Source: an uncultured Granulosicoccaceae bacterium (lineage in GTDB: Bacteria > Pseudomonadota > Gammaproteobacteria > Granulosicoccales > Granulosicoccaceae). From it: a stretch of 42,157 nucleotides of DNA. The stretch lies in contig CALJNA010000027.1 in NCBI GenBank assembly GCA_937981955.1, positions 1 to 42,157 of the forward strand, given 5' to 3'. The stretch's first letter is position 1; every line of letters starts with the position of its first letter. The translations under genes were made by a program, and so were the position numbers. Shown in pieces: positions 28,147 to 30,779 of the stretch. The notes beneath the pieces were generated by a model. It was given only the letters and a program-made list of their open reading frames with translations. It made no database searches and was not told the origin of the DNA.

Positions 28147-29261
28147 TATTTGGCATTCTTGATCGCTACATCGGTCGATCGATTCTGACGACCAGTCTGC
28201 TGGTGCTTTTAACGCTGGTAGCGCTGGCCGGTATATTTGGCTTTATCAGCGAGTTAGATGACGTTGGTAAAGGAAATTATACGGTTGCGAATGCATTGCA
28301 ATACATCTTCTTAACGCTACCGAGTAAAGCTTATTTACTGTTTGCACCCGCAGTGCTGCTTGGCAGTTTATTGGGCTTGGGTGCGATGGCTTCGAACAGC
28401 GAATTAACCGTTATGCGAGCGGCTGGAATATCTAATGGAAGAATAATTCGTGCCGTATTGATGACGGGTGTTGCATTGATGCTGCTGATTGCGTTGCTTG
28501 GCGAAACCATTATGCCCAAGGCGGAGCAAATCGCTGAAGAAATACGTTTAACCGCGTTAGAACAAAGATTATCAGTGAAGGGTAGAAACGGTTTATGGAT
28601 TAAATCAGGTGATAGATACGTCAATATTTCAACGGTTATGCCCGATTTCACGCTTTTGGATGTACACATACATGAATTCGATGGTGTTGAACTTATCAGT
28701 TCCATTCGTGCAGCACGCGCTATTAAAGCAACTGAGTTCGACGCAAAAGACTGGTTGCTACAGGAAGTTGAAACAACCCGATTTGATGCGGAATCGGTTG
28801 AAATTACTCAAACTGATGAACAGTTGTGGAGTGACGTAACTGATGTGGCCAACACCGGAGAAGTGTTGCCTAATTTGATCAGTGTTGATGTATTGAAAAG
28901 CCTGAAAGGCTCATCTGAAAGCCTTTCAGCCCGAAATCTTTATGATCAAATGCAGTATCTAAAAGAGAATCAACTTGATAGTCGCAGTGTTGAACTAGCG
29001 TTTTGGACAAAGATTGCAAGTCCTTTGGCTACTATAGTGATGCTGATGCTTTCTTTACCATTTGTGTTTGCTTCTCAGCGTTCCGGAGGTGCCGGACAGA
29101 AAATATTCATCGGCATTATGCTCGGGATAGTTTATGTGCTTGTTAACAAATTGTTAACGCAACTTGCACTTGCAAATGGCATGTCGCCATTGGTTAGCGC
29201 GTCATTGCCACTTGTCTGCTTTCTCGTTATCGCAATTTTAGGTATACAAAGAAGCGCTTAG
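28143..29261 (+). CDS. lptG: LPS export permease LptG
   Basis: Partner of LptF in LptB2FG. The 372 residues have the same 3 TM - periplasmic jellyroll - 3 TM layout (TM about 15-35, 60-80, 100-122, then 285-370). The start GILDRYIGRSILTTSLLVL and the motif MASNSELTVMRAAGIS are characteristic of the family. The periplasmic domain carries GLWIKSGDRYVNI. The ATG lies inside the lptF stop. The last third of the gene is more AT-rich than lptF and runs toward the AT-rich region at 29.3-30.2 kb. lptB and lptC are not in the window. Confidence 0.95.
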   Translation: MIFGILDRYIGRSILTTSLLVLLTLVALAGIFGFISELDDVGKGNYTVANALQYIFLTLPSKAYLLFAPAVLLGSLLGLGAMASNSELTVMRAAGISNGRIIRAVLMTGVALMLLIALLGETIMPKAEQIAEEIRLTALEQRLSVKGRNGLWIKSGDRYVNISTVMPDFTLLDVHIHEFDGVELISSIRAARAIKATEFDAKDWLLQEVETTRFDAESVEITQTDEQLWSDVTDVANTGEVLPNLISVDVLKSLKGSSESLSARNLYDQMQYLKENQLDSRSVELAFWTKIASPLATIVMLMLSLPFVFASQRSGGAGQKIFIGIMLGIVYVLVNKLLTQLALANGMSPLVSASLPLVCFLVIAILGIQRSA

Positions 29262-29763: not shown

Positions 29764-30051
29764 GTTCGCAAAGTTAATTTTTATGCTGAAACGCTATATA
29801 TACAGTAAAAAAACGAATTCGAACAATTTGCGTGTCGAACTTGCAGCACGCGAATAATTTGTAAATCCGACAACTTGGTCTACGTTTATTTTAATAAAAA
29901 TATAACTTGTAGTTGAAATAAGTTTGAACTATGTGGACAATGCGCACCTTGAAGCGAAGTATTTGCGTTCGTTGTTATAGTTAATTTTGAACAAGATCGA
30001 TTTGCTTTTAAACGTTTTAAGTAACAATGAACTAAGTTAAAACGTTAAATT
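29764..30051. other. AT-rich intergenic region
   Basis: About 290 bp of strongly AT-rich sequence between the RDD gene and the H1-like gene's control region, part of a 450-bp gap. I see no convincing reading frame, tRNA or strong terminator. TATATATACAG near 29795 and runs of T/A could serve promoters on either strand, including one for the RDD gene. The composition suits a protein-bound or curved regulatory region. Confidence 0.6.
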
Positions 30052-30114
30052 AAACGCAAGTTGATATGAATTCTAAAACGCAAGTTGATAAATTTTTATT
30101 TGTTGGCCTGTATT
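30052..30114 (+). promoter_or_regulatory. Direct-repeat operator and candidate promoter of the H1-like gene
   Basis: The 15-mer AAACGCAAGTTGATA occurs twice, at 30052-30066 and 30076-30090, with a 24-bp period. The second copy ends in TTGATA (30085-30090), which can serve as a -35, with TGTATT (30109-30114) as a -10 after 18 bp. The repeats would thus overlap and precede the promoter, the usual arrangement for a regulator binding side by side. Transcription would start near 30121. Confidence 0.5.
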
Positions 30115-30151
30115 TTGGATGTGTGTATGCAGTCATTAGGTTGGCTGCTTG

Positions 30152-30210
30152 AGGAGTCTGGTTTACCTGGCTCCTGATTTTTTGTTTAACAATTCATTCG
30201 TCAGGAGTTA
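30152..30210 (+). promoter_or_regulatory. Leader with intrinsic terminator and alternative SD-sequestering pairing
   Basis: AGGAGTCTGG (30152-30161) pairs CCTGGCTCCT (30166-30175) around a TTTA loop (one G-U, one U-U mismatch) and is followed by six T (30178-30183), a typical intrinsic terminator. It is 38 nt before the start codon of the H1-like gene, inside its leader. CTCCTGA (30171-30177), the right arm, is perfectly complementary to TCAGGAG (30201-30207), which contains the Shine-Dalgarno. With flanking wobbles about 11 pairs form. The two structures are mutually exclusive. No known riboswitch aptamer is recognised upstream. Confidence 0.55.
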
Positions 30211-30213
30211 TCC

Positions 30214-30552
30214 ATGGCTCGAATCAGTAAACCGGTGAAAGCATCACCTGCTAAAGCTGGCAAAAAGAAGGCAGCTGGTAAAAAGGCTGGAAAGAAGAAG
30301 TCAACTGTCCGCAGAAAGAAAAAGGCAGCTGGCAAGAAAAAAGCGACCAAAAAGAAGGCCGCTAAGAAGAAAGTAACCAAAAAACGCACTAAGAAGAAGG
30401 CAGCGGGTAAGAAACGCGCCAAAAAGAAGGCCGCTGGTAAGAAGCGCGCCAAGAAAAAGGCCGCTGGTAAGAAGCGCGCTAAGAAAAAGGCCGCAGGAAA
30501 GAAGCGCGCGAAGAAAAAGTCAGCCGGTAAGAAACGCGCCAAGAAGGGCTAG
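30214..30552 (+). CDS. Histone H1-like Lys/Ala repeat protein
   Basis: 112 residues, almost entirely Lys, Ala, Gly and Arg, with no hydrophobic core. The first ~59 residues are irregular KKAAGKKAGKKKSTVRRKK-type sequence, then five exact-length decapeptide repeats KKKAAGKKRA (the last is KKKSAGKKRA) and a terminal KKG. Proteins of this composition resemble eukaryotic H1 C-terminal domains, chlamydial Hc proteins and Pseudomonas AlgP, and bind DNA or RNA nonspecifically through charge. The Shine-Dalgarno AGGAG (30203-30207) is well placed. The gene stands alone, with an elaborate leader upstream and two hairpins downstream. The opposite-strand frame is a shadow. Confidence 0.9.
   Translation: MARISKPVKASPAKAGKKKAAGKKAGKKKSTVRRKKKAAGKKKATKKKAAKKKVTKKRTKKKAAGKKRAKKKAAGKKRAKKKAAGKKRAKKKAAGKKRAKKKSAGKKRAKKG
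30391..30540 (+). repeat. Five tandem 30-bp repeats in the H1-like gene
   Basis: Five consecutive 30-bp units (30391, 30421, 30451, 30481, 30511) each encode KKK(A/S)AGKKRA. Units 2-4 are nearly identical in DNA, with mostly third-position differences. Such an array can change copy number by slippage or recombination without breaking the frame. Confidence 0.93.
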
Positions 30553-30574
30553 AAGACCGACCAATCGCTTGATA

Positions 30575-30659
30575 GAAACCGTGGCGAACCACTCGCCATG
30601 GTTTCAGTCGGGCGATCTGGCTTTTTACAAACGGGTTCGCTGTGAAGCGGCCCGTTTTT
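30575..30659 (+). terminator. Two hairpins after the H1-like gene
   Basis: GAAACCGTGGCGA (30575-30587) pairs TCGCCATGGTTTC (30593-30605) over 13 pairs with one G-U, around a 5-nt loop. A second hairpin built on ACGGG/CCCGT with an inner TCGCT/AGCGG (30631-30654) is followed by five T (30655-30659). The second is a good intrinsic terminator; the first may protect the mRNA 3' end. Confidence 0.75.
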
Positions 30660-30779
30660 GCGTTTAGGCAGAATTATAATTCAAGCACGTTAGTTTTGAT
30701 TGTCTCCGGTGCCATTTTGGAAGCGCCAACCCACCCACCATGCATAAATTCGTAAATCAGTAGCACGGTTGTCTGTCGC

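Follow-up and report, generated by a model that had tools for sequence, protein, structure and literature searches.

A genus-restricted terminator-like leader upstream of an H1-like gene in Granulosicoccaceae, with a hairpin arm complementary to the Shine-Dalgarno sequence

The window, i.e., the whole stretch of 42,157 nucleotides analyzed here, belongs to a draft genome (G000; 177 contigs, 77% complete), and among named records those closest to its lptG come from Granulosicoccaceae and Granulosicoccus. Here lptF and lptG are followed by an RDD-family gene on the opposite strand, an H1-like gene, moeA (again on the opposite strand), a xerD-like gene of the phage-integrase family and a dsbC-like gene. 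The H1-like gene (30214-30552, + strand) encodes a lysine/alanine-rich protein of 112 amino acids. No Pfam match at E ≤ 0.001 was obtained for this protein, and its score against NCBIfam NF038053 (histone H1-like; 11.5 bits, E 0.26) was below the curated cut-off of 80; the label H1-like is used because of the lysine/alanine-rich composition. The nearest upstream gene on the same strand is indeed lptG, as the first-pass annotation had it; lptG ends at 29261, 890 bp upstream, with the RDD-family gene on the - strand in between. Downstream of the H1-like gene, a long near-perfect hairpin without T-run was seen by eye at 30575-30605, followed by a second hairpin at about 30631-30659 that ends in TTTTT.

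The + strand upstream of the H1-like gene carries a terminator-like stem, hairpin P2 (30152-30175). It consists of the 5' arm AGGAGTC (30152-30158), the 3' arm GGCTCCT (30169-30175), inner GG/CC pairs (30160-30161 with 30166-30167), a U-U mismatch between these pairs and the arms, and a loop at 30162-30165. P2 is followed by GA and the T-run TTTTTT (30178-30183), and the start codon at 30214 lies 38 nt past the stem. The first-pass annotation had placed a terminator-like hairpin and T-run at exactly these positions, which was correct. Folded alone, P2 reached -13.3 kcal/mol (z = -3.3), and none of 200 shuffled sequences was equally stable. P2 was not listed in a pattern scan, because its uninterrupted 7-pair stem leaves a 10-nt loop and the scan was limited to loops of 8.

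A covariance model built from 21 leaders was searched against 27 genomes of the window's genus. A strong match to the P2 element (E ≤ 2.7e-9) was found in 24 of the 27 genomes, once per genome and each time before the H1-like gene, including three genomes (G006, G013 and G020) absent from the model. Of the genomes lacking a match, G005 has a contig that begins within the H1-like gene, and in G004 (74% complete) and G011 (63% complete) the locus was not found when sought through its moeA neighbor, G004 giving just a more distant moeA copy and G011 none. The element was kept although the best MoeA proteins of the other genus genomes were mostly only 45-64% identical to that of the window. Elsewhere in the 27 genomes there was no strong match, weaker second matches having E values of 0.0029 to 0.1. 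In a plain DNA search, 24 of 57 genomes (the source genome included) produced a match, 21 of these being genus leaders; the match in G020 was elsewhere, and those in G028 and G035 covered only the start region.

Anchored counting across the 24 genus leaders showed P2 positions 0 to +4 paired in every leader, position +5 in 22 and position -1 in 20. Clear variation on both sides was confined to position +4 (U-G in 18, U-A in 4 and A-U in 2 leaders), where pairing in 24 of 24 leaders compares with 20.3 expected if the two sides were independent. A MAFFT alignment, which shifts one arm base in many rows, showed both-sided change in only one of seven pairs, with 11 rows set aside at that pair. Thus, comparison of related leaders, as suggested in the first-pass annotation, found the core pairs of P2 intact in all 24 leaders, with limited covariation. 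The core GGAG/CUCC of P2 was nearly invariant, as expected if the 3' arm must remain complementary to the Shine-Dalgarno (SD) sequence of the H1-like gene; the stems of the hairpin located upstream, P1, drift. P2 was more stable than its shuffles at p ≤ 0.05 in 15 of the 24 leaders (L024 being one base off register in this count). The sense strand folded better than the antisense strand in 20 of 24, and this, together with the U-G pairs of the 18 leaders at position +4, which are not palindromic in DNA, disfavors a DNA operator. P2 is very probably a conserved RNA element of the H1-like gene.

Outside the genus, the pattern GGAG...CTC(C/T) of P2 was present in none of 15 distinct H1-like leaders, as compared to 23 of 24 within it, and a weak terminator-like hairpin was seen in three of the 15. 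Of these 15 leaders, L029, L032, L045, L048 and L050 were tied by identity to genomes of other genera in our set, eight came from genomes of other genera, and L055 and L066 belong to more distant Gammaproteobacteria. A wider spread across the class was rejected: model R1 matched in 12 of 369 genomes of the class, nine of them outside the genus (E 1.6e-5 to 0.001), and none of the six of these nine places that were inspected lies before an H1-like gene. Spread to other genera of the family was likewise rejected: the order-level and family-level searches, which covered the identical 48 genomes, returned weak matches (E 0.0012 to 0.1), and among six inspected loci (L091-L096) the P2 pattern occurred in L092 only, with no H1-like frame behind it. 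Judged from these comparisons, the leader RNA appears to be real, restricted to the genus and, in kind, a premature-terminator leader. In one sister genus (g4; L127-L130, L132-L135, L048 and L050), inspection by eye revealed no P2-like hairpin upstream of the H1-like gene; instead, a promoter of the TTGAAT...TATAAT type lies some 35 nt from its start.

The T-run is widespread as well. At least five T within 8 nt followed P2 in 21 of the 24 leaders and at least six in 19; the run was weak in L015 (4 of 8), L016 (5) and L019 (5), and missing in L027 (2) and L030 (1), which kept the hairpins. A mechanical scan of the last 110 nt found a stem plus T-run in 22 of 24 leaders, L027 and L030 giving none. 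The stem was mostly P2; L025 and L026 gave P1 as the best match, and L013 an overlapping register. P2 likely terminates transcripts in most of the species. In transcripts that still lack the 3' arm, pairing of the 5' arm with upstream sequence has a predicted probability of 0.00 to 0.79 and involves helices that differ among the 24 leaders; a strong shared antiterminator upstream of the T-run was not seen among them.

Upstream of P2 lies hairpin P1 (30129-30148; GCAGTCA/TGGCTGC). In 14 leaders with a homologous P1, pairs 1-6 were intact throughout and pair 7 in nine, and compensatory changes occurred at pair 1 (G-C/A-U) and pair 5 (U-A/C-G). The remaining ten leaders have a different or weak hairpin at this place. 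Shuffle tests at p ≤ 0.05 supported P1 in nine of 24 leaders, compared to four of 24 for an upstream control (L024 again one base off), and a wider stretch gave seven versus four; these counts rule out P1 as a significant hairpin in every leader. The covariation in 14 leaders is better evidence for P1 than the shuffle tests.

Further upstream, the conserved sequence TTGGCCT-N5-TTGGAT (30103-30120) forms a promoter-like box. It was found as TTGGCCT-N5-KTGGAT 50-93 nt upstream of P2 in nine of the 24 genus leaders (with one base different in L021), and also in L029 and L045, which lie outside the genus and lack P2. The exact box occurred 15 times in the 27 genus genomes, nine times at the H1-like gene and six times elsewhere, the latter being at chance level since a reversed control pattern matched seven times; it occurred once in the window's genome. 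The -24/-12 sites recognized by sigma54 have GG and GC elements with a spacing of 12 bp. The box has GG pairs at 30105-30106 and 30117-30118, also 12 bp apart, but the second of them stands in place of GC, and the box is a putative promoter. With sigma54-like spacing, transcription would start at 30130, at the base of P1. In the other box-bearing leaders P1 begins, by eye, within about 5 nt of the equivalent point. A scan for sigma70-type promoters found no + strand site between 29942 and 30849. In L012 (genome G015, 1340-1550), the box lies further upstream, and an extra P1-like hairpin with T-run is visible by eye between the box and P1-P2; this arrangement resembles duplicated hairpin units, and the spacer of L013 is, by eye, longer and contains a repeat.

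The 3' arm of P2 can pair not only with the 5' arm. As noted in the first-pass annotation, the SD of the H1-like gene, TCAGGAG (30201-30207), is perfectly complementary to CTCCTGA (30171-30177), and wobbles extend the helix to 11 pairs; the whole anti-SD segment (30169-30177, i.e., the 3' arm plus GA) pairs with 30201-30209. The GGAG of the SD is present in 24 of 24 leaders, and so are the four core pairs of CTCC with GGAG (in L022, CTCT pairs via U-G). The SD helix ranges from 4 to 11 pairs, with the core alone in the two leaders that also have no T-run, and pairing beyond the core is about what would be expected if both sides were independent. A change from AGGAG to TGGAG in the SD of four leaders is uncompensated. 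No covariation of the SD helix was detected in the 24 leaders, the core never varying on both sides, and pairing of the loop with the spacer was hardly better for cognate sequences (-3.84) than for swapped groups (-3.33, sd 2.17), L024 being one base off register in both analyses. Of the two helices for which covariation had been suggested as a test, P2 thus showed it to a limited extent at position +4 and the SD helix did not. An outer helix, nested outside the SD helix, is possible between the P2 5' arm (30154-30158) and GGCTC at the start codon (30216-30220); five pairs can form in 21 of the 24 leaders, again with no covariation.

For the 120-nt leader of the window, the minimum-energy fold contained P2 and the centroid paired the P2 3' arm with the SD, so that the two folds are close in energy. 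Each fold was then imposed on every leader, using either a shorter stretch that began 36 nt before P2 and took in 18 nt of the gene, or a longer one (45 nt before P2, 24 nt of the gene). On the shorter stretch, the SD-paired state was predicted to be at least as stable as the P2 state in 19 of 24 leaders, and in 22 it was no more than 1 kcal/mol less stable; on the longer stretch, these numbers were 15 and 21. L027 and L030 clearly favored P2 with either stretch, their SD-paired state being 7-10 kcal/mol worse on the shorter one. The predicted barrier from P2 to the SD-paired state was 7-22 kcal/mol (median 13.8). The mean predicted probability of pairing between 3' arm and SD was 0.77 over the 24 leaders, as compared to 0.015 with permuted or flipped P2 stem pairs, and mean openness of the SD was 0.07 versus 0.27 (leader shuffled) and 0.35 (stem permuted). 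The predicted SD-masked fold depends on the actual P2 sequence. The 24 rows are homologous rather than independent, and the small Wilcoxon values therefore make the evidence look stronger than it is. The effect was seen in five of seven sequence groups drawn by eye, was weak in L014 and absent in L027 and L030. With the longer stretch, the mean pairing probability was 0.64, with at least 0.5 in 16 of 24 leaders, 0.08 in L021 and 0.39 in the window. The predicted balance between the folds thus shifts with the stretch folded. SD masking may matter in vivo, although we would put the chances a little below even.

Riboswitches and related leaders switch between terminator and antiterminator folds or between folds that mask or expose the SD, and in an ordinary attenuator the competing strand precedes the T-run. 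The leader described here resembles them in having mutually exclusive hairpins that involve the SD. It differs in that no aptamer or antiterminator was found and in that the SD comes after the T-run, so that the folds are not the ON and OFF states of one decision. The competing strand, the SD itself, is made about 18 nt after the T-run; therefore, SD pairing can neither prevent termination nor act as an antiterminator. Opening of P2 gives read-through but masks the SD, and output requires read-through with P2 still folded. Either fold lowers expression, except when RNA polymerase continues past a P2 that remains folded, and for this reason a switch is only partly supported. The first-pass annotation had proposed cis control by alternative terminator and SD-masking folds: a conserved cis element with a nearly isoenergetic SD-masked alternative was borne out, whereas the classic attenuator or riboswitch logic was not supported, given the position of the SD and the lack of covariation in the SD helix. 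At gathering score, Rfam identified just a tRNA (106-189) in the whole window and nothing in the seven relatives searched; with relaxed filters, the region 29900-30700 gave one sub-threshold suhB hit on the other strand at the gene end (19.2 bits versus 41, E 0.25). It is very improbable that the P2 leader is a metabolite riboswitch. The leader probably restrains or tunes the level of the H1-like protein.

The reading we prefer, tentatively and at slightly less than an even chance, is a genus-specific 5' leader in which P2 terminates part of the transcripts and, once opened, masks the SD. Transcription would start just upstream of or at P1, as suggested by the box at 30103-30120. P1 and P2 would fold on emerging, and P2 with its T-run would end a fraction of the transcripts, releasing a leader RNA which, from the anatomy, would be about 55 nt long. 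Read-through transcripts would hold P2 for a while (predicted barrier of about 14 kcal/mol), with a weakly structured ribosome-binding site. When P2 opens, its 3' arm would pair with the SD and often its 5' arm with the start codon, and translation would be off. Termination and masking may each limit the output of a very basic DNA-binding protein or make it depend on ribosomes loading promptly.

It is quite possible, if somewhat doubtful, that P2 is an intrinsic terminator or attenuator only and that the SD complementarity is a by-product of its SD-like, G-rich 5' arm. Any regulation would then act through a termination or antitermination protein that reads this conserved hairpin stem; an equivalent argument has been published for the rimP-leader (PMC2965389). 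The T-run (at least six of eight in 19 of 24 leaders), the SD helix without covariation, the lack of a strong shared antiterminator and the fall from 19 to 15 leaders favoring the SD-paired state on the longer stretch all fit this explanation. It accounts less well for the leaders that keep the hairpin with a missing (two of 24) or weak (three more) T-run, and for folds that lie within 1 kcal/mol or favor the SD-paired state in 22 of 24 leaders (21 with the longer stretch). L027 and L030, which have hairpins without T-run, and the P1 hairpin, kept in many leaders while its sequence changes, would suit hairpins that stabilize the 5' end of the mRNA or set ribosome standby, termination and SD masking being irrelevant; we regard this as improbable, given that 21 of 24 leaders have a T-run (at least five of eight) immediately following P2 and that P2 is conserved in sequence, not in structure alone.

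The first-pass annotation had also considered a separate small RNA of about 60 nt starting near 30121. If there is a short RNA, its 5' end would lie nearer 30130, and P1, P2 and the T-run would form an sRNA of about 55 nt before the gene, with possible targets in trans that include the H1-like mRNA. Two hairpins and a T-run resemble a compact sRNA, P1 is placed where a box-driven transcript would begin, and a trans-acting RNA, IhtA, represses the H1-like HctA in Chlamydia (PMC4355289). This explanation is nevertheless unlikely: the sigma70-type scan showed no promoter for the gene between T-run and SD, the 27 genus genomes hold no strong match elsewhere, and in 23 of 24 leaders CTCC and GGAG are spaced 30-33 nt apart, a constancy indicating that the element evolves as part of the mRNA. 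As a further unlikely reading, we mention a use-it-or-lose-it switch based on a hairpin GGAGUY...GGCUC present as two near-copies, one being P2 and the other the ribosome-binding site itself. Fresh, P2-folded transcripts would be translated, and idle ones would undergo strand exchange into the nested fold, in which SD and start codon are buried; the leader RNA released by termination, with the same anti-SD arm, might silence the mRNA in trans. If this were true, output of the H1-like protein would report ribosome supply.

The only bacterial H1-like protein that we know to be controlled at the RNA level is HctA of Chlamydia, through IhtA. A conserved cis leader before an H1-like gene in a marine genus would be a second, independent case and would offer a compact model for restraining a sticky, highly basic DNA-binding protein. 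It would also illustrate that a terminator arm can double as an anti-SD sequence though the folds cannot serve one classic attenuation decision. In the IhtA/hctA system, RNA pairing at the start region controls translation of the H1-like protein, as predicted here; unlike the present leader, for which pairing in cis and mainly with the SD is predicted, IhtA acts in trans and occludes the AUG without SD pairing (PMC4355289). The rimP-leader, a premature terminator upstream of rimP, shares with P2 a conserved terminator stem near the gene start with G-rich 5' arm, C-rich 3' arm and T-stretch, and no visible antiterminator (PMC2965389). Some of its members are described there as having tandem terminators, and L012, L025 and L026 have a T-rich stretch after the P1-like hairpin; gene and stem sequence differ, and the present leader occurs in one genus only and has a predicted SD-masked alternative. 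AlgP is another H1-like protein (PMC9239181). A literature search, mostly without subscription papers, returned no report of the P2 leader and none joining Granulosicoccus and riboswitch; papers joining Granulosicoccus, genome and histone contained, by title, nothing on gene regulation.

Two kinds of upstream reading frame were rejected. A leader peptide of 16 codons (ATG at 30127 to TGA at 30175-30177, by eye) is lost in L011 and L012, and a conserved upstream ORF starting from an AUG in the P2 loop or 3' arm (AUGGCUC/AUGACUC), present in ten of 24 leaders, has frames and ends that differ by eye. As a separate observation, P2 contains GGAG...ATGGCTCC in L015-L020, L023, L024, L039 and L069 (ATGACTCC in L020). 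This segment nearly duplicates the authentic ribosome-binding site with its start (GGAG...ATGGCTCG) and may represent a decoy start.
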